Of a stretch of DNA of 64,000 nucleotides, positions 45,246 to 62,196 are shown one piece after another (the stretch's first letter is position 1; every line of letters begins with the position of its first letter). The DNA lies in the NCBI GenBank assembly GCA_021792135.1, contig JAJYVF010000005.1, forward strand, positions 124,001 through 188,000, read 5' to 3'. The notes under the pieces are model-generated. The model was given only the letters and a program-made list of their open reading frames with translations. It was not told the DNA's origin and did not search any database. A program made the translations under genes and the position numbers. The DNA comes from Acidobacteriota bacterium (lineage in GTDB: Bacteria; Acidobacteriota; Terriglobia; Terriglobales; Acidobacteriaceae).

Positions 45246-45350
45246 ACACGACGCCACAGGCTGTCAGGCCATCCCGTCAGATCCGGTCTGGACGACAATT
45301 CCTGCGCGCCGTAAGCTGCGGTGTCGCCCCTGAGAAGTGCCGAACAGCAT

Positions 45351-46264: not shown

Positions 46265-46415
46265 CCTCCGGCCGGCGCAGGAACAGCGCTGAAATGACGG
46301 AAGCGGGTGCGCGCAGGGATCGCGCCATTCCTGCGCTCTTTGCCAGGCGTGCCTCTGTTGCTCTCATGTGCGGTAGCGGGATCTTATCCTGCGGGATGCC
46401 CCAGACTTTCTCGGG

Positions 46416-46443
46416 CTGAACAATTCATTTAGAGTTGCAATAT
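46416..46443 (+). promoter_or_regulatory. Possible sigma70-type promoter of the PfkB gene
   Basis: CTGAAC (46416-46421) and CAATAT (46438-46443) with a 16-base spacer lie in a locally AT-richer stretch just before the pfkB-family start at 46465. Both hexamers deviate from consensus (TTGACA/TATAAT), so support is modest. Confidence 0.3.
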
Positions 46444-46464
46444 TGGAGAGACAAGGGATTTCGG

Positions 46465-47502
46465 ATGGACATTGTCGGTGTCGGACTCAATGCCACGGAT
46501 ACTTTGATTCCCGTTCCCCGATATCCGGTGTCCGGTTCCAAGGTCGAGTTTCGCTCCGCATCGGTCCTGCCGGGCGGACAGGTCGCGAGCGCCATGGTGG
46601 CCTGCCGGCAGTGGGGGTTGCAGGCGCGCTACGTGGGAAAGCTGGGTGACGACAGCGCGGCCGAACTCCATCGGGCGGAGTTCATCAGGACCGGCGTTGA
46701 GACACGGCTCATTACCGCCCCGGACTGCGCCAGCCAGCAGGCCTTCATTCTGGTGGAAGACTCCGGCGAGAGGACCGTGCTTTGGAAGCGGGATGATCGC
46801 CTGACCCTGCGCCCTGAGGATCTCAGGCAGGAGTGGATCGTGGATGCCCGCGCGCTGCATGTGGACGGGCATGATACGGCGGCGGCCATTACGGCTGCGA
46901 CCTGGGCCCATGAAGCGGGCATTCCCGTAATCGCCGATCTGGACAAGCTCTATCCCGGGGTGGAGCAACTGCTCGACAAGATCGATTACCTGATCGTGAG
47001 CAGAAACATCCCGGAAGACATCACGGGACAGGCGGATCTGGAGAAGTCGCTGGTCGAAGTCCGTCAGCGCTTCGGGTGTGTGCTGGCGGCAGCGACCCTC
47101 GGCCAGGACGGCGTTCTGGCCTGGGACGGTCAGCATTTCTCCTATGCACCTGCTTATCATGTGGAAGTCGCGGATACGACGGGCGCGGGGGATATCTTCC
47201 ACGCCGGGTTCATCTATGGCCTCCTGCAGGGTTGGCATCTGCGGAGAATCCTCGACTTTGCCTGCGCCGCGGCAGCGCTGAACTGCACTGCCATGGGAGC
47301 GCGAGGCGGTATCCAGCCGGTCAGCTCGATTGAAAAACTGATTGCAACAGGCACTCGCTATGCCCCACTCTACGACGGACTGACTCACAAGGGGAAGGTT
47401 CGAGCTGGCGACCGTCCATTGCTGGTGAGCCGCCGAGCACAGCAGAAGCAAGACCTGGCAGAGGCTCCCTCACGGGGTGTGTGGCCGCAGGAGGCCAGCT
47501 GA
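46465..47502 (+). CDS. PfkB-family carbohydrate kinase
   Basis: Ribokinase/PfkB-type sugar kinase of 346 residues. Signatures: N-terminal VGVGLNATDTLIPV, GGQVASAMVACRQWGL (GGxxxN-type region with Ala for Asn), YVGKLGDDSAAE, and the C-terminal DTTGAGDIFHAGFIYGLL with the catalytic Asp in TGAGD. It phosphorylates a sugar or sugar derivative. Start ATG 46465 is preceded by AAGGGA. With the SDR, SIS isomerase and TIM-barrel protein nearby on the opposite strand it completes the set needed to oxidise, phosphorylate and isomerise a polyol or ketose. The C-terminal 40 residues (from about 305) are a charged extension outside the fold. Confidence 0.9.
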   Translation: MDIVGVGLNATDTLIPVPRYPVSGSKVEFRSASVLPGGQVASAMVACRQWGLQARYVGKLGDDSAAELHRAEFIRTGVETRLITAPDCASQQAFILVEDSGERTVLWKRDDRLTLRPEDLRQEWIVDARALHVDGHDTAAAITAATWAHEAGIPVIADLDKLYPGVEQLLDKIDYLIVSRNIPEDITGQADLEKSLVEVRQRFGCVLAAATLGQDGVLAWDGQHFSYAPAYHVEVADTTGAGDIFHAGFIYGLLQGWHLRRILDFACAAAALNCTAMGARGGIQPVSSIEKLIATGTRYAPLYDGLTHKGKVRAGDRPLLVSRRAQQKQDLAEAPSRGVWPQEAS

Positions 47503-47594: not shown

Positions 47595-49811
47595 TCAGGC
47601 CGGCGGAAGATGAGCCAGATTGGCGCGCGCCTGCGCATGATCGGGCGCCAGCCGCAACGCATGTTCGAAGTCGCTGCGGGCAGCGGCGGTTTTTCCTGTC
47701 CGCGCCTCAAGAACGCCAAGATTATTCCAGCCATCCGGGTCGTTCGGCTGCAGATGAAGCGCCTGATTCTGCTCCTCAATCGCCTGCTGAAGCTCTCCGC
47801 TCCCGGCGAGAACCTGAGAGAGGAGCGCGTGCAGACTGGCATCGGCCGGAGACAAACGGATGGCATCGCGCAGCTGGGACAAAGCATCGGCGGCCCGGCC
47901 CGACTGCGCAAACGCCATGGCGAGATGCTCCCTGGTATCCAGGTCATCGGGGCGGTCCTTCGCTGCTGCCTGAAGCAGATCGACTGCCTGTTCGGGCTGG
48001 CCTGACTCGATTGCCAGTTCACCGAGGTGATAGAGGGCGGTGAAGTTCTCCGGATCGAGATCGAGCGCGCGCTGGAACTCCTCCCGGGCCGCCGCTGCGT
48101 TGCCTTCTCCTTGCAGCGCGACGCCTAACCCGCTGCGTATACCGGCATCAGCGGCGCAGTGGAGCAGCAGATCGCGAAACTGATGCTCCGCATCGGCAAA
48201 GCGAGAGCTCTTCACTTCCAGCGCTGCGAGATTGTACCCGGCATCGCAGGTATCCGGGCTGAGCGCGATCGCCTGGGTAAATGCCTGCTCAGCCCCCTGA
48301 TTGTCCCCGGCTCTCTCCAGGGCCGCGCCCAGACTGTTCATGGCGCGGGCGTCGTTCGGGTGTGCGCTCAGAAGGCGGCGATAGAGCGTGGCGGCTTCGG
48401 CATACCGCCCGAGGGCGGCGCTGGCCGAGGCAAGGTTATAGAGGGCGATGTAATCGCCAGGCCGCCTCTCCAGACGATGCTGCATCCAGGCCTGTTCCAG
48501 CAGCAGACGCGGATCCGGTCCATCCCTCGGCACGTGGACCGGCAGGACCTGAAGCCAGAGGTGGGCCATTTCATCCGTGGACTGGTTTCCTGCCCGCACG
48601 CGAACCGGCGGATCATGCGGGTTGTGGATGTTATCGTCCGAGTTGTCGTAGACGTACCGCATGTGAAGCACCGTGCCCCTCGGCAGAAGGACCGGAGCGC
48701 GATACCGGTAAACGGATTGCCGGTCGATGTCCCAGTTGGGAATACGAATCAGCCATTTCTTCTCGCCATTCGGCAGCATCGCCCAGCCTTCGAGTACTCT
48801 GCCGAGGTAATGGGCGTGCGGATAGACACCCAGGACCTCAACGTCAACCGGGAGTTTCAGTTCGTCCTGCACGACGAAGTTACGGTCGCCGGGAGGGATA
48901 TCGAGTTCGCTGTCGGCGTCCAGTTGCAGCAGCATCGGGTGCTTCGTAGCCGGTTCCTCGGCAAAATACAGGCCGATCTTCGCGCTGATGATCTCCGGCT
49001 TTCCGCTGGGCTTCAGATGCATGTTGAGGATCAGATCATTCCCGGGATCGAGCCGCCACGGCATGCCGGGAGCTTCCACCAGCACCGGTGTGTCTGGTTT
49101 CCAGAAAAGGAAATGGCTGTCGGGGGCAAAGGTATTCCCGGAGTCCACTTCCAGTTCCATGCCCGGAACCCCGTCCCTCCAGTTCGTCCGGTGCTGATGC
49201 CGGAACGAAGCCGTGCGGTCGATGAGGACATTCGCGTGGTGCACGATCTGGGGTGTGCTCGGAAGGACCTCCATGGCGCGAATGAAGTGCGTCTGTGCAA
49301 GCGGGTACGGCAGAACAAAGTTGCGGAAGACGTCGGTACCGGAGGCCCGCAGCGTAAAGGGCCGTTCAACGGAGAGGATCAGGTCGGGCTTGCCCATCTG
49401 CCATGTCGCATCGTAGTGCGGCGGCGCGGGAGCCTCGGCGGGGTTGCCCTCGGGAGCCCCTGATTCGACCCACCGTTTGATGAGGTCCACGTCTTCATCG
49501 CTCAGCCGGCGCGAATCGGCGAAGTCCCCATAACCCGGCGCAGGAAGCCAGGGCGGCATGAAGCGCGACTGCGTAACATCGAGCATCTGCGGTGCGCGGC
49601 GGCGAGCGTCCTGGTACCTGAGCAGACTAAACGGGCCGGCGCCGCCGGGATGGTGGCAGGCGGCGCAGTGGCGGTAGACGATGGGCGCAATCTGTCTGCT
49701 CCACGTGACGCGGCTCTCGGCGGCATGAACCCGAGGTCGCGGGTGCAGCAGACCCGGAAGGGCACACGCCCCGAGCCCGATCAAAATCCAGATCCAGTGC
49801 AGGATCTTCAT
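47595..49811 (-). CDS. Exported cytochrome c / copper-monooxygenase-like / TPR fusion
   Basis: Multidomain exported protein of 738 residues. Signal peptide MKILHWIWILIGLGACALPG; then a haem motif CAACH (about residues 49-53) in a cytochrome c-like domain (to about 125); then a long beta-rich region resembling type II copper, ascorbate-dependent monooxygenases, with QIVHHANVLI (His-His pair) and GVYPHAHYLGR (HxH), which could ligate two coppers (to about 420); then about nine TPR units (from about 440: ALYNLASASAALGRYAEAAT, ARAMNSLGAALERAGDNQGA, GWNNLGVLEARTGKTAAA). The ATG at 49811 overlaps the stop of the redoxin-like gene, giving a two-gene operon. Probably periplasmic. Copper hydroxylation activity is inferred from the fold resemblance; substrate unknown. 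Confidence 0.78.
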   Translation of the reverse strand: MKILHWIWILIGLGACALPGLLHPRPRVHAAESRVTWSRQIAPIVYRHCAACHHPGGAGPFSLLRYQDARRRAPQMLDVTQSRFMPPWLPAPGYGDFADSRRLSDEDVDLIKRWVESGAPEGNPAEAPAPPHYDATWQMGKPDLILSVERPFTLRASGTDVFRNFVLPYPLAQTHFIRAMEVLPSTPQIVHHANVLIDRTASFRHQHRTNWRDGVPGMELEVDSGNTFAPDSHFLFWKPDTPVLVEAPGMPWRLDPGNDLILNMHLKPSGKPEIISAKIGLYFAEEPATKHPMLLQLDADSELDIPPGDRNFVVQDELKLPVDVEVLGVYPHAHYLGRVLEGWAMLPNGEKKWLIRIPNWDIDRQSVYRYRAPVLLPRGTVLHMRYVYDNSDDNIHNPHDPPVRVRAGNQSTDEMAHLWLQVLPVHVPRDGPDPRLLLEQAWMQHRLERRPGDYIALYNLASASAALGRYAEAATLYRRLLSAHPNDARAMNSLGAALERAGDNQGAEQAFTQAIALSPDTCDAGYNLAALEVKSSRFADAEHQFRDLLLHCAADAGIRSGLGVALQGEGNAAAAREEFQRALDLDPENFTALYHLGELAIESGQPEQAVDLLQAAAKDRPDDLDTREHLAMAFAQSGRAADALSQLRDAIRLSPADASLHALLSQVLAGSGELQQAIEEQNQALHLQPNDPDGWNNLGVLEARTGKTAAARSDFEHALRLAPDHAQARANLAHLPPA

Positions 49812-50383
49812 GGCAGATTGCGGGGCACGATGGAACATCCCACGGCTGGACCGCCTGGCTTTGCAACGGGCCGGTTCGCCAGCACAGCGCGAATCGCATC
49901 CTCCAGATCGTGGCGAGTCGCCGACGGTCGCTCCTGGCCCAGGGAAACGTATCGATTGTCGATGCGGCCCCGGTACATCTCACGCAGGCCATCCGACGAG
50001 GGCACGAAGACGGCAACCTCGGGAGTGATGGTTGCGTGAGCCATCCGGGTCAGAAGCTGGTCCGTATCGAGCACATCCTCCGCGTGAATATCGAACTGGG
50101 CGTCGTGGCTGCGAACGACCTGCGATGTATCTTCCGGATTCGGATAGACCCACCAGAAGCGCACGCCCTCCGGCGAGAATTCACGCGCCAGCCTCTCGAT
50201 CTCCGGTATGTAGCGGTTGGAGATGGGACAGTCCGACGCAGCAAAGAAGAGCACCACCGCACGCGAACCGGACGGAGCGAGGTTATCCACGGGACGACCC
50301 TTCAGGTCCGTTCCGAAGGGCTGTGCAGCCCACGCAGCCGGCACAAGCCAGCAAAGCAGAAGCAACATGGAGCGGCAAACCAT
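49808..50383 (-). CDS. Exported redoxin-like protein
   Basis: Thioredoxin-fold protein of about 191 residues with a signal peptide (MVCRSMLLLLCWLVPAAWAA). The AhpC/TSA-redoxin-type core has GSRAVVLFFAASDCPISNRY, where one Cys stands at the usual active-site position (CPIS, no CxxC), EIERLAREFSPEGVRFWWVY, ATITPEVAVFVPSSDGL (cis-Pro segment) and YRGRIDNRYVSLGQERPSAT. The single active-site Cys argues for a metal-binding or peroxidase-like role rather than disulfide exchange. It is upstream of, and overlaps by four bases, the cytochrome/copper-monooxygenase-like gene and could deliver copper or electrons to it. The start could also be GTG 50401. Confidence 0.8.
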   Translation of the reverse strand: MVCRSMLLLLCWLVPAAWAAQPFGTDLKGRPVDNLAPSGSRAVVLFFAASDCPISNRYIPEIERLAREFSPEGVRFWWVYPNPEDTSQVVRSHDAQFDIHAEDVLDTDQLLTRMAHATITPEVAVFVPSSDGLREMYRGRIDNRYVSLGQERPSATRHDLEDAIRAVLANRPVAKPGGPAVGCSIVPRNLP

Positions 50384-50843
50384 AGCCTGGAAAGGTACCA
50401 CGCTCCCATAGCATCATGGAACCCCATGACGATAAGACGATGGAGCCCGCACCCATACCTGAGTTAGAGACCGTGGAAAGCATAATGCCGGCAGGAGTTA
50501 GCAGCCGGGCGGATTTCTGACCGTTTTTTCACTTGACAAGCCAGGATCGCCTTGCCTACAGTTGCTGCCTCAGTAGCGAAGTATCCTCAGCCAGAGCGGC
50601 CTTCCCCGGTAAAAAGGTGGTTCTTATGACGACCACCGGTCGCAATCATGAGTAACGGCGTATCCGCGGTAGCTGTGTGCGTAAAGGGAGTTCCCTGGGA
50701 CGCGGCCAATCTGCAGGAGATGGGCCGCGCTCTGCATCTGTCCGCCGAAGTCCAGCAGCAGCATTAAAGCGCGATTGGCGCATAAGTCCCTGCTTGTCAG
50801 GGAAACGCTCGGGCTGTTCCCATACGGCTTTTCTGGAGGCAAC
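50384..50843. other. Divergent upstream region of redoxin and TonB receptor genes
   Basis: 460 bases with no convincing gene. It contains a good promoter for the receptor gene (listed separately), leaving a long untranslated leader of roughly 270 bases before the receptor ATG. The leader has room for a structured regulatory RNA, but I could not match it to a known riboswitch class. Confidence 0.5.
50533..50562 (+). promoter_or_regulatory. Sigma70-type promoter of the TonB-receptor gene
   Basis: A perfect -35 hexamer TTGACA (50533-50538), an 18-base spacer and TACAGT (50557-50562) as -10, preceded by an AT-rich CCGTTTTTTC. It points toward the receptor gene at 50844 and is the best promoter seen in the window. 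Confidence 0.55.
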
Positions 50844-53800
50844 ATGAGACCATCGAGGCTGATTGCAGCCTGCGGCGTCGCGCTGAGCCTGTGCTTCTCG
50901 CCGGCATTGATGGCACAGGCGGTTTTCGGCTCCATCTACGGGACCGTAACCGACGCCACGGGCGCTGTGGTTCCGAATGCCAAGATCACGATTACGGATG
51001 TGGGCAAGGGTACGTCGATCACGGTCACATCGAACGAGTCAGGCAGTTATGTGGCGCAGCACCTGATCCCGGACGTTTATAACGTCAAGGTGGAGGCCTC
51101 CGGATTTCAGACCTTCGAGGCAGACGGCATTCAGGTCGCTGCCGATACGTCCCCCAGAATCGATGCCCAGCTGAAGGCCGGCAGCACGACCCAGACTGTG
51201 ACGGTCAGCGCCAGCACGATTCCGGAACTGAAAACCGACCGCGCCGATGTGGCGACGGAGTTCAACTCCAGCGACATGCAGACCCTGCCGCTTCCGGACC
51301 GCAACTTCACAAACATTCAGCTCCTGCTGCCCGGAGCGCAGCAGCTGAACTGGGCTCATGCAGCCGATGAGGATCCGCAGGGCAGTAAGCAGATCCAGGT
51401 GGACGGCCAGGCCTTCGGCGGCGTGGCCTACATGCTCGATGGCACGGACAACCAGGACCCCATCCTGGGCATTATCGTCATCAACCCCGCGCTGGATGCC
51501 ATCTCGAACGCCAAGATCATTCTGCAGAACTACGACGCGGAATTCGGCAAGGCCGTCTCTTCCTTCATCTCCGTACAAACCAAATCCGGATCCAACCAGA
51601 TCCACGGGAGCGCATTCGACTATCGCGAAAGCAATGCGAACCTCGCCACCGATCCCTATTCCCAGTTCCGGGGCTCCGGAGCATTCCCTCCGGGTGTGCG
51701 GAATCAGTTTGGCGGATCCATCGGCGGACCCGTCATCAAAGACAGGACCTTCTACTTCGGCGATTATCAGGGCTGGCGGCAGAAGGTAGGCATCGCAAAC
51801 ACCCAGACTGTTCCCTCCAGTTATCTGGTTTCCACCTGCCTGGGCCAGACCATGCCCACCAGCGGTATACCCGGATGCGACTTCAGCCAGTATGTGGCTA
51901 ACGTGCCCAATACTCAGATCATCGACAACATTCCCGGCGATCCCAACAACGGCAAGCCATTCCCCGGTAACGTCATACCGGCAGCCGACCTCTCGCCACA
52001 GGCGCTGGGCCTCCTCAAGCTGCTCCAGCCCTATGCTCCCAATACGACGGGACAGTATAACGGCCTCAAGAACAACTTCGCGAAAAGCGGCACAGGCGGC
52101 TTCAATTCGGATCAGTGGGACGTACGCATTGACGATCAGGTCATCTCCGACAAGGCCCATGCTTTCGCGCGTTTCAGCCGGTTTACCGATACCATGACCG
52201 GCACCACGATGTTTGGCCCGGCAGGCGGCGCCGGGTTCGGACCCAACGGGTACGGCGGAAACTCCAAAGGGGCGAACGACAGCCTGGCGGCAGGCATGGA
52301 CTTTGCCCTTTCGCCCAAGTGGCTGATGGACTTCCGGCTCGGTTACTTCCGCTATAACATCATCGACGCTAAATTCGATCAAGGCATCCCGTTCGCCGCT
52401 AACCTCGGGATCCCGGGGATGAACACCGGTAACTATTTCACCGATGGCGCGCCGTACTTCCAGGTCGCCGAGGTGGATGTAAAGGGCAGCAGCGGAGCCA
52501 GCAACCCTACGGACGGCGGACCGAGTTATGGCAGCGGACTCAACCTCAACCGCTGCAACTGCCCGCTGACCGAACGCGAAGATGAATTCCAGGTGGTGAA
52601 TAACTGGACTCGAATCGTAGGCAATCACTCCATCAAATTTGGTGCAGATCTCCGCTATGGACGGAACCTGCGCGTTCCCAGCGATGTGGACCGGGCCGGT
52701 ATCATCAACTTCAATCCCGGTCCGACATCCAACAGCAGTACCTATGGGCTGGGATTCGCCACGCTCATGCTGGGGCAGGTAAGCACCTACAACCGGTTTG
52801 TGAGCGTCTCCACAAATGCCAAGGAGTTCCAGAAGCGCCTCTTCTTCTACGCTCAGGACACCTGGCATATGACGCCCAACCTGTCGGTGAATTATGGGAT
52901 GCGCTACGAGTACTACAGCCCCGAAGTTGTCAACGCACCCGGCAACGGGGCCCTGATGAAACTGACCGACGGCTATCTTCACGTCGCGGGTGTAGGCGGC
53001 ATCGGTACCAATATGGGCTGGAGTCCGTCGGAATTTCCGCTGGCGCCCCGTGTGGGTGTCGCCTACTCCGTCAATCCGACGACCGTCATCCGCGCCGGCT
53101 ATGGACGCAGTTTCGACATCGGAGTCTTCGGCTCCATCTTCGGCCACGTCGTCACCCAGAACCTGCCCGTTCTGGCCCAGCAGTCCATCAACAATCCAAC
53201 AACGACAGCCTATGCGTTCTGTCTCGGACCGAATACCCCGGGATGCACCCAGCCGGCCAGCCAGCCAGCCGGAGGCGGCCCTGCACCGTACGTTTTCCCC
53301 CTGGTTCCCTCTACCGGGCTGCTGCCCAATCCGGGCTATGGGGTCAGCTCCAAGGTGCGGCCTGATCCGCTGCGGCTCCCGACCCTGGATGCCTGGAACC
53401 TGAGCATGCAGCACGCGCTGACTCCCACGCTTTCCGCGACCCTGGCCTATGTCGGCAACAAGGGTACGCACACGCTCAGTGCCGGTGACGGCAACACAAC
53501 CAACCCCAACGAGACGGCGATCTTCCTGCCATCGAACTACAGCATTACTGGAGCGCCCCTGCACTACGATCCGAGCGTTCCCTCCAGCGTGGTCGTCAAT
53601 GGAGGGCCGCCTGGAATTGCGGCGAACGGTGGCACCGCGGTTACAAATTATCTGCAGCGCTACTACGGCGGCACTCTCCCGGCCTGTCAGAGCGCTGCGT
53701 ATGAGGCACAGATCGGAAAACTTGGCGAACCTGGGGTAACACCCGGCATGTGCGGCTGGATTCCCGGCGTCAACTACTACGGCGATAACCAGGACTCTCA

Positions 53801-54578
53801 CTACAATGCCCTCGACGCCACGCTCGCCAAGCAGTTCAGCCACGGTCTCAGCTTCAGTGCTCAGTACTCCTGGCAGCGCGCCTATGCCTGGAACTCCTCC
53901 TTCTCAACATGGAATCGCCACGCAGTCAAGGAGCGCGATCCCAATGTCCGCGAGCAGCAGTTCGTCCTCTACGGCACCTGGAACCTGCCCTTCGGACGCA
54001 ACCAGATGGTGGGCGCCAATGTACCGCGCGCAGTCGATGAAATTATCGGTGGCTGGATCTTCAGCCCGGTGCTGAACTGGTCCAGCGGCCTGCCCTACAC
54101 CCTCGCGTTTGCAGAGTGCAGCGCCTTCATCCCCGGCGATGCGCCCTGCAGTGTAAATGGCGTGCCGAAGAACCTGCCGCACGGTCTGACCAAATACGAC
54201 CCGATTACTCACAGCCGAAGGTTCTTTACCGGAACTTCAACCCCGCTCTACAACACCAGTACGGGCGTTTACACCTCCTACCTTGGTTTCAGCGCCACCG
54301 GACTGGATCAGCTGGGGAGCAGTGGACTGAACAACATGTATGGACCGGGATTCTTCAACGGCGATCTTTCGCTCATGAAGAACTTTCCCGTCCACGAAAG
54401 CATCGTGGCTCAGTTCCGCCTCGACGCCTATAACGGCTTCAACTACATGGCTCAGGGCAATCCCGGAAACACCAACCTTGATGGCGGCTCCTCGGCCGGC
54501 GTCATCAGTGCTTGCGCGGGAATCAACAACTCGTGCAATCCACGCCAGCTGCAATTCTCGCTGCGCGTGGATTTCTGA
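50844..54578 (+). CDS. Oar-like TonB-dependent receptor with carboxypeptidase-regulatory domain
   Basis: Outer-membrane receptor of 1244 residues. ATG 50844 follows GGAGG and starts a signal peptide (MRPSRLIAACGVALSLCFSP). Residues 32-115 are a CarboxypepD_reg-like Ig domain (GSIYGTVTDATGAVVPNAKI, SNESGSYVAQHLIPDVYNVK). A plug domain follows (LPLPDRNFTNIQLLLPGAQQ, QIQVDGQAFGGVAYMLDGTD, QNYDAEFGKAVSSFISVQTK), then the large barrel with alternating aromatic strands, ending QLQFSLRVDF, a typical C-terminal beta signal with terminal Phe. This Oar-like type is strongly expanded in acidobacteria. It should import or bind a large substrate, powered by TonB; the substrate is unknown. First gene of the plus-strand group reaching 62196. 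Confidence 0.95.
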   Translation: MRPSRLIAACGVALSLCFSPALMAQAVFGSIYGTVTDATGAVVPNAKITITDVGKGTSITVTSNESGSYVAQHLIPDVYNVKVEASGFQTFEADGIQVAADTSPRIDAQLKAGSTTQTVTVSASTIPELKTDRADVATEFNSSDMQTLPLPDRNFTNIQLLLPGAQQLNWAHAADEDPQGSKQIQVDGQAFGGVAYMLDGTDNQDPILGIIVINPALDAISNAKIILQNYDAEFGKAVSSFISVQTKSGSNQIHGSAFDYRESNANLATDPYSQFRGSGAFPPGVRNQFGGSIGGPVIKDRTFYFGDYQGWRQKVGIANTQTVPSSYLVSTCLGQTMPTSGIPGCDFSQYVANVPNTQIIDNIPGDPNNGKPFPGNVIPAADLSPQALGLLKLLQPYAPNTTGQYNGLKNNFAKSGTGGFNSDQWDVRIDDQVISDKAHAFARFSRFTDTMTGTTMFGPAGGAGFGPNGYGGNSKGANDSLAAGMDFALSPKWLMDFRLGYFRYNIIDAKFDQGIPFAANLGIPGMNTGNYFTDGAPYFQVAEVDVKGSSGASNPTDGGPSYGSGLNLNRCNCPLTEREDEFQVVNNWTRIVGNHSIKFGADLRYGRNLRVPSDVDRAGIINFNPGPTSNSSTYGLGFATLMLGQVSTYNRFVSVSTNAKEFQKRLFFYAQDTWHMTPNLSVNYGMRYEYYSPEVVNAPGNGALMKLTDGYLHVAGVGGIGTNMGWSPSEFPLAPRVGVAYSVNPTTVIRAGYGRSFDIGVFGSIFGHVVTQNLPVLAQQSINNPTTTAYAFCLGPNTPGCTQPASQPAGGGPAPYVFPLVPSTGLLPNPGYGVSSKVRPDPLRLPTLDAWNLSMQHALTPTLSATLAYVGNKGTHTLSAGDGNTTNPNETAIFLPSNYSITGAPLHYDPSVPSSVVVNGGPPGIAANGGTAVTNYLQRYYGGTLPACQSAAYEAQIGKLGEPGVTPGMCGWIPGVNYYGDNQDSHYNALDATLAKQFSHGLSFSAQYSWQRAYAWNSSFSTWNRHAVKERDPNVREQQFVLYGTWNLPFGRNQMVGANVPRAVDEIIGGWIFSPVLNWSSGLPYTLAFAECSAFIPGDAPCSVNGVPKNLPHGLTKYDPITHSRRFFTGTSTPLYNTSTGVYTSYLGFSATGLDQLGSSGLNNMYGPGFFNGDLSLMKNFPVHESIVAQFRLDAYNGFNYMAQGNPGNTNLDGGSSAGVISACAGINNSCNPRQLQFSLRVDF

Positions 54579-54598
54579 CCCACTACCATCCCCAGTCC

Positions 54599-54625
54599 CG
54601 GAGGGGAGCTTTCTGCTCCCCTCCG
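54599..54625 (+). terminator. Hairpin after the receptor gene
   Basis: CGGAGGGGAGC (54599-54609) and GCTCCCCTCCG (54615-54625) form a perfect 11-base stem with loop TTTCT, 20 bases after the receptor stop. It has no T-run. It may be a partial terminator or an mRNA-stabilising loop that lowers expression of the downstream genes relative to the receptor. Confidence 0.55.
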
Positions 54626-54655
54626 CCCGCCTCTCAGGAGTACACTTCCCGCATC

Positions 54656-55681
54656 ATGTTTCGGGGTTCCAGGCTCTCCGTGCTCATCTTCGCTGCTCTG
54701 GCTGCGAATGGCTCCGCCCAGACGTTGTCTGCTCCTGAGGCTCCTTCGGTGGCGGAAGCCCGCGCGCTGATGGCTGGGGGCAAAGCAGCTGAGGCTATGC
54801 GCGAGCTTGATGCACTGGCTGTAGTGCGCCCCGAACCGGCAGGCGTGGAGCGGCTGCGCGGGATTCTCCATTACGAGAATAATCAGCTCCCGGAAGCGGA
54901 AGCTTCGTTTGCCACGGCGGTCCAGCAGGATCCGTCGGACCTTCAGTCGCTGCAGATGCAGGGGATCGTGCTCTTTCGCATGGGCAAACCGGCACAGGCG
55001 ATCCCCATTCTGGAAAAGGCGCACTCCTCCGGACCTATCGCTAATGCCGATCCGAATTATGTACTTGCGCTTTGTTATATCGATACGAAGCGCTATGACG
55101 ATGCGCGGAGGGCGTTTGCCGAGCAATACGATTTCCGGCCGGACTCTGCCGCGGCATGGCTGGTGACCGGACGCATGCTCTTCCGCCAGGAGCTGACGGG
55201 GCCGGCGGCGGCCGCTGCAAAAGAGGCCATTCAACTGGATCCTCGTTTGCCGCTGGCGCACCGGCTGCTCGGCGAAATCGACCTTGCCAATGGCGACGTT
55301 TCCAGCGCTGTCGTGGAACTCGAGAAGGAACAGGCGCTCAATCCGCTGGACGGCGAAACGTATGACCGGCTCGGAGACGCCTGGCTGCGCAGCGGCCAGT
55401 ATGCTCGCGCACAGCAGGTGCTGGACCGGGCCGTTCTTCTGGAACCTAACGCGACCGGCCCCTACATCCTGCTGGGAAAGGCCCTGCTCGAGCAGCAGGA
55501 CCCGGTGATGGCGACGATGTATCTGGAGCACGCCCTCAAGATGGATCCGTCGAATTCGATGACCCACATGCTGCTGGGCCGAGCCTTTGCCGCATCCGGA
55601 CGCAGGGAGGACGCGCAGCGCGAGTTCGAAGCGCTCCGCAGGCTCCAGGACTCGAATGGTATTGCACCTTCGAAGCAGTAA
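54656..55681 (+). CDS. Exported TPR protein
   Basis: TPR protein of 341 residues with a signal peptide (MFRGSRLSVLIFAALAANGS, cleavage near SAQ). About seven TPR-like helical pairs follow, such as GILHYENNQLPEAEASFATA, LQMQGIVLFRMGKPAQAIPI, AHRLLGEIDLANGDVSSAVV, TYDRLGDAWLRSGQYARAQQ and THMLLGRAFAASGRREDAQR. TPRs form protein-binding superhelices, so it is likely a periplasmic scaffold. The ATG at 54656 has AGGAG only at long distance; no better start is seen. It ends 16 bases before the second TPR gene. Confidence 0.85.
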   Translation: MFRGSRLSVLIFAALAANGSAQTLSAPEAPSVAEARALMAGGKAAEAMRELDALAVVRPEPAGVERLRGILHYENNQLPEAEASFATAVQQDPSDLQSLQMQGIVLFRMGKPAQAIPILEKAHSSGPIANADPNYVLALCYIDTKRYDDARRAFAEQYDFRPDSAAAWLVTGRMLFRQELTGPAAAAAKEAIQLDPRLPLAHRLLGEIDLANGDVSSAVVELEKEQALNPLDGETYDRLGDAWLRSGQYARAQQVLDRAVLLEPNATGPYILLGKALLEQQDPVMATMYLEHALKMDPSNSMTHMLLGRAFAASGRREDAQREFEALRRLQDSNGIAPSKQ

Positions 55682-55697
55682 CAGGAGCGGGCCAGAG

Positions 55698-57446
55698 ATG
55701 GATCCCCTTCCAGTTCGATGGAGACTGGCTTTCGCAGTAGGCCTGTTTATGGGATCCGCGGCCTGTCGCGGGCAACAAAACGCGATCCAGCAGGCCGACT
55801 CGGCTTTCCGGGCCGGAACCGCGGCTTACGCGCACGGCGATCTTGAAGAAGCGCGGGTTGAATTCGCGCATGTAGTCCAGCTTGCGCCTCGCATCGAGGA
55901 AGGCCACAGCGCGCTGGGAGTCGTGCTGTACGCTCTGGGGAGATATCCGCAGGCCATCGCGGAGCTGGAGACGGCTTTGAAACTGAAGCCAGGGGATCGC
56001 ACCGCGCAGGAAAACCTGGCTCGGGCATGGAGCCAAACCGGCTCTCCGGAAAAGGCTGCGGCACTCCTGGCGCAGATGGATCACGACTCTCCTCTGGATG
56101 GAAACCTGCTGGCGCTCTGGGCACGCGATCTGGCCGGTACGTCGAATCTCGCAGGCGCCCTTGAGGTGATGCGCCGCGCCGTTGCCGCCGGTCCGCAGAA
56201 TGCCGGCCTGGAAGATCAGCTTGGATCGCTCTACGCTCAGGCCGGCCGCTGGGTCGAGGCCGAGATGGCATTCCAGCAGGCCGTGCAGCTGAATCCGCAG
56301 CTTTCGTCGGCGCACATGCATCTGGGCGTCGTGCTGAGCCACGAGCAGCAGCCGGACCGGGCGGCGGCGGAATTTGCTCTCGCTGCGCAGCTCGATCCCC
56401 ATAACCCTGTGGTGCAGTTTGAGTGGGGGAATGCGCTTGCTGCGGCGGGCAGGGATGACGATGCCGTCGTCCATCTTCAGCAGGCAATCGCTTTGCAGCC
56501 GGAATTCCTCGATGCGGAGTATCAGCTGGCGCTGGCCCTGCAGCGCACCGGGAAAGAGAGTGACGCAATTCCCTTCTTTCAGAAGGTGACAGCCGCTCGG
56601 CCGCGGGACGCCGAGGCGCTTACCAATCTTGCTCTCGCACTGGTGCAGACCGGCCGCGCGAAGGATGCTGTGCCCCTGTACCTGCGCGCTGCAGCGCTCA
56701 CCCCGGACAACCCCACGGTTCACCAGGATCTGGGAGTGGCTTATCTCCAGCAGAGCGATGTGGATGATGCGGTGAAGGAATTCCGGACAGGCCTGAAGCT
56801 CGCCCCGGACGATCCGCACCTGCACTACAATCTCGGGCTTGCGTTCAAGCTGAAAGACGATCTGCCCGATGCCATCGGCGAACTGGAATCGGCGATGAAG
56901 CTCGATCCCTCTTCGCCGGATGCTCCCTACACCCTGGGCATCCTCTATATGCAGGACGGCCGCTTCGATGACGCGGTGCGCAACCTGCGCACGGCGCTGC
57001 AACTTCGGCCGCAGAATGGCGACGGATGGTCGGTCCTCGGCAGCGTCTACCGGCAGCAGGGCAAATATGAGGACGCAGCCGCAGCTCTGCGGAAGGCCAT
57101 CGCGCTGCTGCCGGCTCAGCCCGGCCCGCACATTACTCTGGCCGGCGTTCTGCAGGATCAGGGAAAACAGAATGAAGCCATCGCAGAACGGAAGAAAGCC
57201 GCCGAACTGACCCGGGTGGCAGTCAACCGGCAGCGCGCCATGTTCTCAACGAATGCCGGAAACGCGCTGCTCAGCAAGGGCGAGATTGCAGACGCCATCT
57301 CCCATTACGAGGACGCCATCGGCAGCGATCCTTCCTACGCGGAAGCTCACCGCCAGCTGGCAGCGGCGCTCGCGGAGCAGGGCCGGCTAACCGAAGCCGC
57401 GACGGAAAAGCAAAGAGCTGAGGCTTTATCGGCAGGCAAGCCGTAG
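55698..57446 (+). CDS. Exported TPR protein
   Basis: Second, longer TPR protein of 582 residues. N-terminus MDPLPVRWRLAFAVGLFMGS with AACRGQQ could be a signal peptide or lipobox (SAAC). About fourteen TPR units, many near consensus: HSALGVVLYALGRYPQAIAE, AHMHLGVVLSHEQQPDRAAA, VHQDLGVAYLQQSDVDDAVK, LHYNLGLAFKLKDDLPDAIG and APYTLGILYMQDGRFDDAVR. It probably scaffolds the periplasmic redox proteins encoded on either side. AGGAG lies 10 bases upstream of ATG 55698. It is 25 bases before the CRTAC1 gene; gene order and short spacing indicate one operon. Confidence 0.87.
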   Translation: MDPLPVRWRLAFAVGLFMGSAACRGQQNAIQQADSAFRAGTAAYAHGDLEEARVEFAHVVQLAPRIEEGHSALGVVLYALGRYPQAIAELETALKLKPGDRTAQENLARAWSQTGSPEKAAALLAQMDHDSPLDGNLLALWARDLAGTSNLAGALEVMRRAVAAGPQNAGLEDQLGSLYAQAGRWVEAEMAFQQAVQLNPQLSSAHMHLGVVLSHEQQPDRAAAEFALAAQLDPHNPVVQFEWGNALAAAGRDDDAVVHLQQAIALQPEFLDAEYQLALALQRTGKESDAIPFFQKVTAARPRDAEALTNLALALVQTGRAKDAVPLYLRAAALTPDNPTVHQDLGVAYLQQSDVDDAVKEFRTGLKLAPDDPHLHYNLGLAFKLKDDLPDAIGELESAMKLDPSSPDAPYTLGILYMQDGRFDDAVRNLRTALQLRPQNGDGWSVLGSVYRQQGKYEDAAAALRKAIALLPAQPGPHITLAGVLQDQGKQNEAIAERKKAAELTRVAVNRQRAMFSTNAGNALLSKGEIADAISHYEDAIGSDPSYAEAHRQLAAALAEQGRLTEAATEKQRAEALSAGKP

Positions 57447-57471
57447 CGTTGCTGTGGTACTTTTTCTCCCA

Positions 57472-59349
57472 ATGAATCGGAGGCAATTCCTGGGCTCTCT
57501 CAGCCGTACCGCAGTGGTGCTGCCCTTCGCGGACGTCCTGCGGCTGGCTGTGCCTCCATGGCGGCGTTATCCGCTCCTGGGAGCACAGCAGATGGGTCAG
57601 AACCGGCCCGGCGCGCAGCAGTCCTACGATGCGAAACCGATGCCTCCGCCTTCCGGTCCGCCCTCGCCGATTACGGGTACCCCGCTTGGCGTCCAGTTCG
57701 TCGACGTCGCCAGACAATCCGGTCTGAACACGAAGACGATCTTCGGCGGCGAGGGAACCAACAAATATCTGCTGGAGACTACCGGCTGCGGAGTTGCCTT
57801 CTACGATTACGACCAGGACGGCTGGCTCGACATCTTTCTGGTGAACGGCTGGCGTCTCGATGGTTTCCCGAAAGGTTCTGAGCCGACCTGCCATTTGTTC
57901 AAAAACAATCGCGACGGAACCTTCACCGACGTTACCGCCAAAGCCGGACTTGCCCGCAGCGGATGGGGGCAGGCCTGCTGCGTCGGCGACTACAACAACG
58001 ATGGATGGGACGACCTCTTCGTCACCTGCTATGGCCAGAATGCTCTCTTCCATAACAACGGCGACGGCACCTTCACCGATGTCACTGCGAAGACAGGATT
58101 GCTGCAGCCGAAGACGCGCTGGAACTCAGGCTGCGCGTTCCTCGATTACGACCGCGATGGGCATCTGGATCTCTTCGTCGGCAACTACATTGACTTTGAC
58201 CTGAAAACTGCACCCCTGCCGGAGTCCGGTCCCTGCCTCTACAAAGGCATCCTGGTGGCCTGCGGACCGCCTGGCCTTGCTCCCGGGAAGAATATCCTCT
58301 ACCACAACAACGGCAACGGCACCTTCGCCGATGTTTCAGAAAAAGCCGGCATGTGGAATACCTACGGCAACTACGCGCTCAGCGCGGCAGTCGCCGATTT
58401 CGATAACGATGGATGGCCGGACATTTACGTCGCGAACGACTCCACCGCCGCGACCCTCTATCAGAACCAGAAAGACGGCACCTTCCGCGACGTTGCCATC
58501 GAAGCGGGCGTCGCTTTCTCCCCCGACGGCAAGCCCCAGGCCGGTATGGGCGTGACCATCGGAGACTACAACCGCGATGGCTGGCTCGATATCGCCAAAA
58601 CAAATTTTGCCGGCGATACCGACTCCCTCTATGCGGGACTCGGCGGGTTCAACTTCGAAGACCGCACTTATCAGGCTGGCCTCGGCGTGAATACCCGTTA
58701 TCTGGGATGGGGGATCGGATTTATCGATATAGATAACGACGGCTGGCTCGATCTTCTGGTGGCCAACGGTCACGTATATCCCGAAGTCAACACCGTTAAG
58801 ACGGAGGCTCCTTACGCCGAACACAAGTATCTGTACCGCAATATGCGCAACGGGCGGTTTGAGGATGCCAGCGCTCAGGGTGGCCCCGGAATCACCGCGG
58901 CCGTTGCTGCTCGCGGCTGTGCATTCGGAGACTACGACAACGACGGCGACGTCGATGTCCTGGTGAACTGCATGAATTCCCTGCCCCAGTTGCTCCGCTG
59001 CGATTCCAGCTGGCAGCGGCACTGGGTCAAGGTCAAACTGGTTGGCGTGCGCTCCAACCGCACCGGGATTGGCGGCCGCGTCCGCATCCTGGCCAGAGTG
59101 CGGCCTGACAACGCCAGGCCGATGACACTGATCGATGAAGTGCGCAGCGGCGGCAGCTATTATTCGCAGAGCGACCTGCGGCTCCACTTTGGGCTGGATC
59201 AGGCAAAGACGATTGACTTGCTGGAGGTGCGCTGGCCATCAGGTCAGATCGACACCTTTAAGGATTTGCCTGCCGACCGGCTCTACGCTGTGGAAGAAGG
59301 CGCCAAAGAACCGACAGCGTATCTGCTGCCCGGGATGAGGAAGGTCTGA
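57472..59349 (+). CDS. CRTAC1-type FG-GAP/VCBS protein with ASPIC/UnbV domain
   Basis: Exported protein of 625 residues with a Tat-type signal (MNRRQFLGSLSRTAVVLPFA). Seven calcium-loop repeats of the type DxDxDGxxD form a seven-bladed propeller: DYDQDGWLDIFL, DYNNDGWDDLFV, DYDRDGHLDLFV, DFDNDGWPDIYV, DYNRDGWLDIAK, DIDNDGWLDLLV and DYDNDGDVDVLV. The C-terminus is the ASPIC/UnbV domain (IGGRVRILARV, GGSYYSQSDLRLHFGLDQAK, VRWPSGQIDTF). The Tat signal suggests folding, perhaps with cofactor or metal, before export. The family is associated with surface binding; its role is not established. It ends one base before the next gene, so they are co-translated. Confidence 0.92.
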   Translation: MNRRQFLGSLSRTAVVLPFADVLRLAVPPWRRYPLLGAQQMGQNRPGAQQSYDAKPMPPPSGPPSPITGTPLGVQFVDVARQSGLNTKTIFGGEGTNKYLLETTGCGVAFYDYDQDGWLDIFLVNGWRLDGFPKGSEPTCHLFKNNRDGTFTDVTAKAGLARSGWGQACCVGDYNNDGWDDLFVTCYGQNALFHNNGDGTFTDVTAKTGLLQPKTRWNSGCAFLDYDRDGHLDLFVGNYIDFDLKTAPLPESGPCLYKGILVACGPPGLAPGKNILYHNNGNGTFADVSEKAGMWNTYGNYALSAAVADFDNDGWPDIYVANDSTAATLYQNQKDGTFRDVAIEAGVAFSPDGKPQAGMGVTIGDYNRDGWLDIAKTNFAGDTDSLYAGLGGFNFEDRTYQAGLGVNTRYLGWGIGFIDIDNDGWLDLLVANGHVYPEVNTVKTEAPYAEHKYLYRNMRNGRFEDASAQGGPGITAAVAARGCAFGDYDNDGDVDVLVNCMNSLPQLLRCDSSWQRHWVKVKLVGVRSNRTGIGGRVRILARVRPDNARPMTLIDEVRSGGSYYSQSDLRLHFGLDQAKTIDLLEVRWPSGQIDTFKDLPADRLYAVEEGAKEPTAYLLPGMRKV

Positions 59350-59350
59350 G

Positions 59351-60997
59351 ATGCGGCGGCTCTGGTCGGCCCTGCTGGTTGCCTGCGGCTTCGCCCTCAT
59401 CGCCAGCGTTCCGCACGCGCAAACGAATTCGCCGCCACAGGACCCCGATGCCGTCTGCGCCTCCTGTCATCGGCAAATTTACGACTCGTGGAAGAAGACC
59501 CCGATGGCGCACGCCAGCGGACCCGCTGCCGAAGGATTTGTTCCTGCGGATTTCACCCACGCCGCGTCGGGCGTCCATTACCGGATCTATCTCGACAAGG
59601 GGCAGGTGTGGCTTTCATATGAGCGGCCCAATGCCCCACCTGATCGTGCGCTGAACGGCAGACAATTGCTGCTCTTCTATCTCGGCTCCGGACGGCGCGG
59701 GCGCACCTGGCTGTACGAACGCGAGGGATACTGGTTCGAAATCCCCATCAACTGGTATGCAAAGAAGCACATCTGGGACATGACTCCGCATTTCCTCAAC
59801 ACCCGCGCAATGCCCTTCACTTTGCCCGTCGATCCAGGTTGTCTCCATTGCCATGCAAGCGACGTCGCGGCATCGCTGCCGGATGCGCGGAATCATTATG
59901 CAGGGCTCCCGTTTCCGCACGGCGGCATTTATTGCTCATCCTGCCACGGCGATGCCTCGCAGCATCTGGCGCAACACGGCAGGGGACCGATCCTGAATCC
60001 TGCAAGACTGGACCCGATCCGGCGAGATTCAGTTTGCCTGGAGTGTCACCTCGAAGGTGAGGTTGTTGCGATCAGGCAAGGCCGGCACCTGGGAGCGTTT
60101 AAACCGGGAGACAATCTCTTCGACTATGCGGTGTACTTCGAAGATGGGCGCAAAGCCGGGGCCGCGGGGCGTGCCACCAGCCAGTGGGAGTCGCTGCTGG
60201 AGAGCGCCTGTAAACGGGCAAGCGGGGACCGCCTCACCTGCACGACCTGTCACGATCCGCATTCCGCGCCTTCGCCGGAGGAGCGCGTGAGCTACTATCG
60301 AGCACGCTGTCTCAGCTGCCACGCCGGGTTGGCTTCGGGACATCACTCCAGCAACCCCGACTGCACCTCCTGTCACATGCCCCGCCAGGAGACGCAGGAT
60401 ATCGCGCACGAACAGGTGACGGACCACCGCATTCAGATTCCCTCCAAACCTTATGCCAGTCCGCTTTCTTCTGCTGAACTGGTTCCCGTCGGCGGCATCC
60501 ATCCCAGCCCGCGCGACGAGGGAATCGCCTGGGCGCAGCTGGGGTTTCGCGGCGATCGTGCCGCCGGGGAGCGCGCCATGAAGTTGCTGCTGGAAGCGGA
60601 GGCCTCCGATCCCGCACAGGCTTCGGATGCCGAGTTGCACATGGAGCTCGGATTTCTTGAGCAGGCAAGCGGAAATCGCGAACGCGCCCGCACGGAGTAC
60701 GAGGAGGCCCTGCGCGCAGACCGGTTCAACGAAACTGCGGCGGGCGACCTCGCAGTGCTCGATGCGCAGCAGGGCGACTTTGCCTCCGCGCAGCCCCTTT
60801 GGGCGGCCGTATTCCAGCACGACCCCGGAGCCAGCGCGGCCGGGATTGATCTTGCGGTGGCGCAGTGCCGCCTCGGCCAACCCGGCGCGGCGGCACAAAC
60901 CCTGCACCGGGTTTTGCTCTTCTCTCCCGATAATGAGACCGCCAGGAGGCTGTCCCTCGCGCTCGATCGCGGGGACAGCCAGTGCACAAAGCGGTAA
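59351..60997 (+). CDS. Heptahaem cytochrome c with C-terminal TPRs
   Basis: Exported multihaem cytochrome of 548 residues. Signal peptide MRRLWSALLVACGFALIASV. Seven CxxCH haem sites: CASCH, CLHCH, CSSCH, CLECH, CTTCH, CLSCH and CTSCH, all in the first 345 residues, in the style of cytochrome c554/nitrite-reductase-like proteins. A TPR-type helical region follows (about 400-548: LHMELGFLEQASGNRERART, AAGDLAVLDAQQGDFASAQP). ATG 59351 lies one base after the CRTAC1 stop. Likely periplasmic electron carrier for the operon. Nitrogen, sulfur or metal chemistry cannot be chosen from sequence. Confidence 0.9.
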   Translation: MRRLWSALLVACGFALIASVPHAQTNSPPQDPDAVCASCHRQIYDSWKKTPMAHASGPAAEGFVPADFTHAASGVHYRIYLDKGQVWLSYERPNAPPDRALNGRQLLLFYLGSGRRGRTWLYEREGYWFEIPINWYAKKHIWDMTPHFLNTRAMPFTLPVDPGCLHCHASDVAASLPDARNHYAGLPFPHGGIYCSSCHGDASQHLAQHGRGPILNPARLDPIRRDSVCLECHLEGEVVAIRQGRHLGAFKPGDNLFDYAVYFEDGRKAGAAGRATSQWESLLESACKRASGDRLTCTTCHDPHSAPSPEERVSYYRARCLSCHAGLASGHHSSNPDCTSCHMPRQETQDIAHEQVTDHRIQIPSKPYASPLSSAELVPVGGIHPSPRDEGIAWAQLGFRGDRAAGERAMKLLLEAEASDPAQASDAELHMELGFLEQASGNRERARTEYEEALRADRFNETAAGDLAVLDAQQGDFASAQPLWAAVFQHDPGASAAGIDLAVAQCRLGQPGAAAQTLHRVLLFSPDNETARRLSLALDRGDSQCTKR

Positions 60998-61074
60998 GTT
61001 GCACGCAGGAAGATGATTCGGTGCCGGAGTATCCTAAGGACCCTGGATATTATGGTTGGCGAAGGTACTGACGA

Positions 61075-62196
61075 ATGCGACGAATGATGCTGATCCTGCT
61101 GGTCGCTCTCCTGGGCGGGGCGCAGCAGAAGGCGAGCGACTCCTGGAAGATCGCGCCCTTCACGCGCCCGGCGAGCGGGAATCCCGTGATCACGCCCAAT
61201 CCTTCCTCGACATTTCAGGATCCGGTCCGCAAGGCCCCCGTTCACTGGGAAGCTCTGCATACCTTCAACCCCGCTGCCATTGTGCGGAACGGAAAAATCG
61301 ACGTGCTCTATCGTGCCGAAGACAACACCGGCGCGATGCAGATCGGCATGCATACCTCGCGGCTGGGTCTCGCTGAAAGCTCGGACGGAATCCACTTCGC
61401 CCGCCGCAGCACCCCCGTCTTTTATCCTGCGGACGACAGTCAGAAGGATCGCGAATGGCCAGGCGGCGTGGAAGACCCGCGTATCGTTGAGTCTCCGGAC
61501 GGAACCTATGTCCTGACTTATACACAGTGGAATCGCAAAATCTACTCCGTGGGGATTGCGACTTCACCGGATCTTATCCACTGGACGAAATATGGGCCTG
61601 CGTTTCTGCATGCGGAAGGCGGCAAGTACGCAAACCTGAAGTACAAGTCGGCGGGGATTGTCACGACGCTGCGAAACGGCAGACTGGTTGCGGCACAGAT
61701 CCACGGCACCTACTGGATGTACTGGGGCGAAGGCGCCATTCATCTGGCAACCTCACCGGATCTTATCCACTGGACCCCGGTAGAGGATTCCGCCGGCAAC
61801 CCGGTCGAAGTTCTGCGGCCGCGGCCGGGCCATTTCGACAGCAGCTTCCCGGAGACCGGTCCTCCGCCAGTACTGACGCCACGCGGTATTGTCGTCATCT
61901 ACAACGGGAAGAACGCGGCTTCCGGTGGCGATCCGAAGCTCGCGCCGTACACATATGCGGCAGGGGAAGCCCTGTTCGATGCGCATAATCCCCGGCGCCT
62001 TCTCGCACAGACCGAGAATCCCGTTCTGCAACCCACTCTGCCTTATGAGAGGAGCGGTCAGTATGCAGCCGGAACCACCTTCGCGGAAGGGCTCGTGCAT
62101 TTCCGCGATGAGTGGTTTTTATACTACGGCTGTGCCGACTCCCTGGTTGCGGTCGCCACGACTCCCGCGCCGGTCGACAGGGAACCTGGGCGTTAG
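61075..62196 (+). CDS. Exported GH130-like glycosidase/phosphorylase
   Basis: Five-bladed propeller protein of 373 residues resembling GH130 (beta-mannoside phosphorylases and hydrolases). Short signal sequence MRRMMLILLVALLGGAQQ. Conserved bits are FNPAAIVRNGKIDVLYRAED, GGVEDPRIVES (ED pair), VGIATSPDLIHWTKYGPAF, EGAIHLATSPDLIHW and FAEGLVHFRDEWFLYYGCAD. Two blades share an identical 23-base DNA segment (61564-61586 and 61753-61775). Being exported, it is unlikely to depend on cytosolic phosphate and may be a hydrolase acting on mannosides. It starts 77 bases after the cytochrome gene and may belong to the same transcript. Confidence 0.82.
   Translation: MRRMMLILLVALLGGAQQKASDSWKIAPFTRPASGNPVITPNPSSTFQDPVRKAPVHWEALHTFNPAAIVRNGKIDVLYRAEDNTGAMQIGMHTSRLGLAESSDGIHFARRSTPVFYPADDSQKDREWPGGVEDPRIVESPDGTYVLTYTQWNRKIYSVGIATSPDLIHWTKYGPAFLHAEGGKYANLKYKSAGIVTTLRNGRLVAAQIHGTYWMYWGEGAIHLATSPDLIHWTPVEDSAGNPVEVLRPRPGHFDSSFPETGPPPVLTPRGIVVIYNGKNAASGGDPKLAPYTYAAGEALFDAHNPRRLLAQTENPVLQPTLPYERSGQYAAGTTFAEGLVHFRDEWFLYYGCADSLVAVATTPAPVDREPGR

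Follow-up and report, generated by a model that had tools for sequence, protein, structure and literature searches.

A recurrent TonB-linked envelope cassette of Acidobacteriota with a predicted PHM-fold copper enzyme and a probable carbohydrate substrate

The closest described systems are the SusC/SusD polysaccharide utilisation loci of Bacteroidota. In Verrucomicrobia, TonB carbohydrate-utilisation (CUT) loci as well as cytochrome clusters are described in parts of PMC5615132. Here we analyse an eight-gene envelope cassette at positions 47595-62196 of the window, by which we mean the whole 64,000-nucleotide stretch of an Acidobacteriota bacterium (family Acidobacteriaceae, GCA_021792135.1, contig JAJYVF010000005.1, positions 124,001 to 188,000). 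The cassette shares with SusC/SusD and CUT loci a TonB-type receptor, glycoside hydrolases linked to it and, in some relatives, a sugar regulator or transporter. It differs by having TPR and CRTAC1 proteins, a multihaem cytochrome, a redoxin and a predicted PHM-fold enzyme in the same run. Planctomycete-specific cytochromes and the porin-multihaem clusters of Verrucomicrobia are likewise cases of saccharide degraders with cytochrome or multihaem genes, but with different domains, and neither CRTAC1 nor a TPR-CRTAC1 fusion or a PHM-fold protein is mentioned in the parts of PMC5615132 consulted. Divergent CRTAC1-type paralogues are also present in another acidobacterium, Candidatus Solibacter, whose ASPIC/UnbV paralogue group appears in selection-test tables, with no cassette or function given in the corresponding parts of PMC3174227. 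An earlier note on this DNA knew of no described pathway with this exact set, and none was found among the open-access titles and abstract starts listed, a scope that leaves out most subscription papers and preprints. The cassette consists of the following genes.

47595 to 49811, minus strand: cytochrome c, predicted PHM/DBH-fold copper type II monooxygenase domain and C-terminal TPRs (copper protein; 738 aa from ATG 49811, 747-aa open reading frame (ORF) from 49838).
49808 to 50401, minus strand: AhpC/TSA-type redoxin, exported (Pfam AhpC-TSA; ATGA overlap with the copper gene).
50844 to 54578, plus strand: TonB-dependent receptor of the OMP_b-brl_4 kind with CarboxypepD_reg domain (Pfam; ORF from 50775).
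54656 to 55681, plus strand: TPR protein 1 (TPR1), exported (ORF from 54512).
55698 to 57446, plus strand: TPR protein 2 (TPR2), exported (ORF from 55587).
57472 to 59349, plus strand: Tat-type CRTAC1 protein, FG-GAP beta-propeller plus UnbV_ASPIC (ORF from GTG 57454).
59351 to 60997, plus strand: heptahaem cytochrome c with TPRs at the C-terminus.
61075 to 62196, plus strand: GH130 protein near beta-1,2-mannosidases (BT3780-type model), accessory member.

All eight ORFs were found in these places, and the two divergent units and their domain content agree with what the earlier note had described. Some ORFs open further upstream; the ATG starts used are those judged likelier. With these, genes of the plus unit are separated by 77, 16, 25, 1 and 77 bases, and the redoxin and copper genes overlap by ATGA, as the note had stated. 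Among 36 aligned homologues of the copper protein 69% keep the start at ATG 49811, which is M10 in the longer ORF, and 19% the upstream one. A hydrophobic N-terminal stretch is present in every product (best 12-residue mean 1.73 to 2.71), so that the claimed export signals hold as judged from a hydropathy count alone, without a signal-peptide predictor; the CRTAC1 protein additionally carries the twin-arginine motif RRQFLG. In Pfam the redoxin reaches 27.8 bits for AhpC-TSA (cut-off 26). The receptor combines OMP_b-brl_4, CarboxypepD_reg and a TonB barrel (PF00593 43.8 vs 27 bits; PF25183 565.9 bits) and is presumably what would be called 'Oar-like'. FG-GAP (186 bits) and UnbV_ASPIC (67.5 bits) are both above their cut-offs in the CRTAC1 protein. 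TPRs occur in the two stand-alone proteins and at the C-termini of the copper and heptahaem proteins. The latter indeed has seven CXXCH motifs (CASCH, CLHCH, CSSCH, CLECH, CTTCH, CLSCH and CTSCH); its structure prediction was poor (pLDDT 54.5).

A 370-aa heptahaem domain served as query in 200 genomes of the order and was found at E <= 1e-30 in 80 of them, the cytochrome–PHM domain in 54. In a sample of the phylum (E ≤ 1e-60) the heptahaem family occurs in 9/297 genomes, eight of which, including that of the window, belong to the window's family. Four sets of loci were compared by one method: 80 CRTAC1 loci, 60 heptahaem loci (~19 kb each), 20 copper loci without heptahaem neighbour and 40 control loci. 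The heptahaem loci represent 60 of 68 matches (down to E 2.2e-82); the eight left out are two from the own genome, two from G030 (near-duplicates of G016) and one each from G049, G146, G058 and G053. For the copper set, the 30 strongest matches were taken less those with a heptahaem match near, which left 18; two weaker ones, L187 (partial) and L188 (without TPRs), were added. Controls were set at arbitrary round coordinates on large contigs of the same genome sample, with no formal random draw. Gene calls came from a simple script that scores G+C by codon position rather than from a trained gene finder. L030/L112, L051/L144 and L045/L186 are apparently the same contigs, and counts over all 160 loci contain these repeats. 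Because TPRs are shared between them, the heptahaem, copper and TPR families are overcounted by profile; gene labels were used for these instead. The families were distributed as follows.

Receptor: 39/80 CRTAC1, 45/60 heptahaem, 4/20 copper, 6/40 control loci.
TPR: 49/80 CRTAC1, 47/60 heptahaem, 6/20 copper, 2/40 control loci.
CRTAC1: 80/80 CRTAC1, 31/60 heptahaem, 3/20 copper, 1/40 control loci.
Heptahaem: 9/80 CRTAC1, 60/60 heptahaem, 0/20 copper, 0/40 control loci.
Copper domain: 6/80 CRTAC1, 11/60 heptahaem, 20/20 copper, 0/40 control loci.
Redoxin: 3/80 CRTAC1, 11/60 heptahaem, 17/20 copper, 0/40 control loci.

Hence the receptor, TPR and CRTAC1 families co-occur from either anchor, and heptahaem genes usually lie in such cassettes. 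Fisher tests of heptahaem against control loci, which take no account of relatedness among genomes, gave 2e-9 for the receptor, 4e-14 for TPR, 3e-8 for CRTAC1 and 2e-3 each for copper domain and redoxin. The 60 heptahaem loci span 17 genera, with a receptor in 16, TPR in 16, CRTAC1 in 13 and the copper domain in 8 of these. Receptor, TPR and CRTAC1 stand together at 28 heptahaem loci from 13 genera, all six families at six loci from three genera. In four genomes of one genus (L121-L124) receptor, heptahaem, redoxin, copper, TPR and CRTAC1 genes follow each other in this order on one strand. Among same-strand neighbours at most 150 bases apart in the 160 loci, TPR-CRTAC1 (37), receptor-TPR (35), redoxin-copper (30) and TPR-heptahaem (20) pairs were frequent (at least three contigs counted twice). 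The neighbourhood search that the earlier note had called for thus returned families that recur around heptahaem genes compared with controls, and the refuting case named there, genes not co-conserved in relatives, did not arise. Its expectation that CRTAC1, heptahaem and copper genes co-occur holds from the heptahaem side; few such cases are seen from the CRTAC1 side. The eight-gene set is a real, recurrent, loosely modular envelope system.

That two unrelated units merely became neighbours by chance is barely credible. Such a view could draw on the redoxin-copper pair, which lacks a receptor in most of the 20 loci away from heptahaem genes. Overall a redoxin gene is found in 30/37 copper loci, and the pair is a separable module that often stands alone. 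However, of the 30 copper-protein matches that score best (E ≤ 1e-140, counting that of the window), 12 lie within ~11 kb of a heptahaem match, for which chance would give well under one by rough estimate, and the colinear run in four genomes largely refutes mere adjacency. Chance neighbourhood of the cassette genes in general is ruled out by the anchored loci compared with controls.

The locus, on contig 58 of its own genome (5.1 Mb, 77 contigs), is not singular there but one of many paralogous cassettes. We found 28 UnbV_ASPIC matches and 51 receptor-family matches, the latter amounting to 44 genes or fragments after merging by eye. A receptor gene lies within 10 kb of 14/28 CRTAC1 domains, where 4.2 are expected. 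In the paralogous cassette L025 consecutive genes are receptor, TPR, CRTAC1, heptahaem and TPR, and in L019 TPR2, pentahaem and CRTAC1. Four long CRTAC1 proteins (L010:695-4129, L011:11839-15417, L027:2279-5896 and L028:7791-10193) are of particular interest. In L010, L011 and L027 clear TPR arrays precede FG-GAP/UnbV_ASPIC in the same chain; in L028 the TPR match is weak. These single-chain proteins provide domain-fusion evidence for TPR and CRTAC1 working together. They make the scaffolding by TPRs that the earlier note had suggested likelier, and the TPR-bearing and partner proteins may form a physical complex. The envelope system proposed in that note is borne out as a set of co-conserved parts with redox features; cassettes are many, the redoxin-copper pair is separable and GH130 is accessory.

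Unlabelled neighbour genes were clustered and representatives scanned with Pfam and NCBIfam. Recurrent families are GH63/15-like (MGH1/GDE_C-type) proteins, GH13, trehalase, GH130, LacI/GntR-type regulators and sugar MFS transporters. The GH63-like family has a Pfam match in its representative L057. The GH13 enzyme matches Pfam alpha-amylase; in NCBIfam it comes closest to the models named beta-galactosidase BglA, phosphotrehalase and maltose glucosyltransferase, scoring far below the cut-off of each. By profile, GH63-like genes occur at 23/80 CRTAC1, 9/60 heptahaem and 1/40 control loci, GH13 at 15/80, 15/60 and 0/40 and sugar MFS at 5/80, 1/60 and 0/40 in the same order; LacI is present at 14/60 heptahaem and 1/40 control loci. 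Any of the four hydrolases (GH13, GH63/15-like, GH130, trehalase) was found at 31/80 CRTAC1, 25/60 heptahaem and 2/40 control loci, and still at 23/80, 21/60 and 1/40 once the GH63-like family is taken out. Hydrolase-bearing heptahaem loci come from 11/17 genera, and 8/11 loci with both heptahaem and copper genes carry a hydrolase (five genera). In L110 redoxin, copper, GH13, GH63-like and receptor genes are colinear on one strand, and in L121–L124 a LacI-family gene is located 398–481 bases from the receptor. The substrate, left open by the earlier note between glycan, peptide, copper chelate and aromatic compound, is now probably a carbohydrate, judged from the gene context in relatives.

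In the window itself GH130 is the sole linked hydrolase found. It aligns with PDB 3taw over residues 21-363 (405 bits); 3taw and 5a7v, the latter being presumably BACOVA_03624, are its best solved relatives and are named glycosidases. It scores 473.4 bits with the NCBIfam equivalog NF058598 (BT3780-type beta-1,2-mannosidase), below the cut-off of 550. It is similar in sequence to BT3780-type enzymes, the cassette context being different. In 12/14 clustered copies, including that of the window, GH130 lies at most 600 bases from a core gene. It is absent from the 20-kb congeneric stretch L109 and from the Silvibacterium stretches L030/L112. Owing to this variability GH130 is doubtful as a core part; by itself it is not enriched over controls either, and a core role was not supported.

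Based on this context we tentatively consider the locus, at close to an even chance, a TonB-dependent oligosaccharide-utilisation cassette of Acidobacteriota with a periplasmic oxidative (redox) arm. By its make-up it belongs, as a variant, with the TonB-dependent loci for carbohydrate utilisation, its redox arm being unusual and the substrate class assigned by neighbourhood. The receptor would import a sugar chain, which the TPR proteins and the CRTAC1 propeller would hold or scaffold, the role of SusD in Bacteroidota. GH130 in the window, and other hydrolases in relatives, would trim it. The PHM-fold enzyme may hydroxylate the substrate or a substituent on it, receiving electrons from the heptahaem protein and from the cytochrome c of its own chain, and the redoxin might maintain the copper site or its thiols.

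Several observations weigh against this assignment. Association is not activity, and the sugar link derives from gene context. Oxidation of the sugar itself is the weakest step of the mechanism. No GH13, GH63-like or LacI family was found in window positions 43000-64000, and no SusD family among ten window proteins scanned with Pfam (for TPR2, among 25 of 31 families). The hydrolases vary, being alpha-glucosidase-like in relatives and beta-mannosidase-like in the window. A further GH63-like representative, L120, has no Pfam match and a faint NCBIfam match. No significant enrichment was seen for LacI at CRTAC1 loci (7/80), for GH130 alone (6/80 CRTAC1, 5/60 heptahaem, 1/40 control loci) or for trehalase alone (5/80, 5/60 and 0/40). 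Three of the 11 heptahaem loci with copper gene lack a hydrolase, the congener L109 among these, and 10/60 heptahaem loci are without any receptor, TPR or CRTAC1 gene in the vicinity. At CRTAC1 loci, compared with 0/40 controls, heptahaem genes reach P 0.02, copper P 0.08 and redoxin P 0.29; these low counts imply that CRTAC1 cassettes are mostly without redox arm. At copper loci away from heptahaem genes only 2/20 have a hydrolase. Hence the copper/redoxin pair has no universal tie to sugars and may serve some other periplasmic oxidation, which sugar loci would have recruited.

Part of these observations would also fit a general outer-membrane uptake or export cassette of receptor, TPR and CRTAC1 with no fixed substrate class, which we regard as rather unlikely. 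Sugar genes would then adjoin because catabolic genes are frequent neighbours of such receptors, with redox genes as occasional passengers. The 28 CRTAC1 domains and ~44 receptor genes or fragments in one genome are in line with this, as are receptors in 6/40 (strict) to 13/40 (profile) control loci, the few heptahaem and copper genes at CRTAC1 loci and the widely varying neighbours. Yet hydrolases accompany 25/60 heptahaem loci vs 2/40 controls and are colinear with the cassette in L110, and controls contain CRTAC1 genes at only 1/40 and heptahaem genes at 0/40 loci.

The redox arm of the proposed oligosaccharide cassette was evaluated in silico. Residue numbers of the copper protein refer to the 747-aa ORF. 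C58, C61, H62 and M94 are invariant across 36 homologues (C58-x-x-C61-H62), a cytochrome c with a possible Met ligand. H200/H201, H274, H341/H343 and M424 are conserved to 97-100% in the same set and form a ligand pattern HH, H, HxH, M, the order and local motif of PHM. Order and motif, not superposed coordinates, define this correspondence. The PHM residues H107, H108, H172 and M314 are named in PDB titles of Foldseek matches. H242/H244 and the ligand motifs are what we take to be the remaining PHM counterparts. With the full-length protein Pfam returned TPR-like repeats alone at E 0.001. PF03712 (Cu2_monoox_C) is matched by 28/29 family members at E up to 1 (best 8.6e-7), the window protein reaching 17.1 bits against a cut-off of 23. 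PDB sequence searches with the copper domain gave no PHM match; one was obtained by fold comparison only. A model of the domain built from 6 sequences (pLDDT 73.9) was used for this. The 31 best Foldseek matches are all PHM or DBH (E 7.3e-13), and 260 residues were aligned with PHM (VIA-align) at Z 20.7 and a root-mean-square deviation of 3.4. The model shows a predicted two-domain PHM fold, in agreement with the copper-monooxygenase likeness seen in the earlier note. Compared to PHM/DBH (PDB 3mic, 1phm, 4zel) the copper protein shares the predicted fold and six copper-ligand positions; it differs in sequence (17% identity over the aligned part) and by the fusion to cytochrome c and TPRs. The PHM-type domain occurs once in the own genome; 58 other matches begin at query residue 443 or later, the TPR part. 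Copper-dependent hydroxylation would be the putative activity of the PHM-fold enzyme.

In a bolder version Acidobacteriota would possess a machine for oxidative glycan utilisation, in which sugar chains, either imported or bound at the surface, are attacked by the PHM-fold copper monooxygenase. The enzyme's own cytochrome c and the heptahaem-TPR protein would replace ascorbate as reductant and TPR/CRTAC1 scaffolds would organise the machine. We deem this distinctly unlikely. More unlikely still is copper or iron acquisition or redox defence, with the PHM-fold protein binding copper, the redoxin acting as Sco-like thiol chaperone and the receptor importing a chelate. The redoxin of 30/37 copper loci, mostly away from a receptor, is compatible with such a role, and so are its two nearly invariant cysteines and one conserved histidine (C58 100%, C189 97% and H164 93% of 29 homologues). 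However, a scan of 37 neighbours and paralogues, a small part of the neighbours, revealed no family for copper export, metallochaperones or chelate biosynthesis, and hydrolases recur as neighbours in cassette loci.

The heptahaem protein could also plug the receptor barrel as MtrA plugs MtrB and form an extracellular electron-transfer conduit. It matches DmsE/GSU2203 decahaem models, far below cut-off, and by profile PDB 6r2q (E 5.5e-7), which is named otherwise in the match table and which we take to be the MtrCAB complex. Yet the barrel matches TonB-type receptor families with CarboxypepD_reg and no MtrB-type porin family in the Pfam scan, the heptahaem cytochrome carries TPRs, gene order varies and the heptahaem gene is found on either strand relative to the receptor. 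A conduit appears highly improbable.

Some further observations concern the surroundings and relatives of the cassette. Window positions 29925-47502, ahead of it, encode an FGGY kinase, DUF885, a LutB-like LUD/4Fe-4S protein, a proton pyrophosphatase, lumazine synthase, a xylose-isomerase-like TIM barrel, SIS, SDR, a 2OG-Fe(II) oxygenase and PfkB; two of these genes belong to sugar-kinase families. The PfkB sugar kinase (46435–47502), convergent with the copper gene, was rejected as cassette part (0/60 heptahaem loci, 1/40 controls). A protein family of ~420 aa is located at most 420 bases from a core gene in 12/12 clustered loci (L036, L044, L052, L061, L065, L066, L075, L077, L141, L143, L154 and L183) and is a candidate cassette regulator; PF00486 matches below cut-off in L154 and not in L077. 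Another family of multihaem-TPR proteins, with medians of five CXXCH motifs and 743 aa, lies at most 130 bases from a CRTAC1 or TPR gene in 12/12 clustered loci (L033, L034, L037, L041, L042, L043, L046, L109, L133, L148, L162 and L166), own-genome cases including L019. At G000:C73:9731-12595 of the own genome a further gene of the cassette's receptor family is broken into pieces with internal stops. The nearest named relatives by CRTAC1 include an Acidobacterium metagenome-assembled genome (L029, 85%), an Acidobacteriaceae metagenome-assembled genome (L031, 78%) and Silvibacterium bohemicum (L030, 76%). Contigs titled Rhodanobacteraceae (L046) and Verrucomicrobia (L096) bear such cassettes as well, with CRTAC1 identities of 68 and 70%; perhaps these assemblies are mis-binned or mislabelled.

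Acidobacteriota are common among soil bacteria (stated in the abstract of PMC3174227). TonB-linked sugar uptake with no SusD seen would differ from the solution of Bacteroidota. If the bolder version were true, the PHM-fold machine would be a functional counterpart of lytic polysaccharide monooxygenases on a different fold. Taken together, the little-understood bacterial CRTAC1 family gains a biochemical setting, and receptor, TPR proteins, CRTAC1, heptahaem protein, redoxin and the putative PHM-fold enzyme define a testable set, which forms a single colinear run in some relatives.

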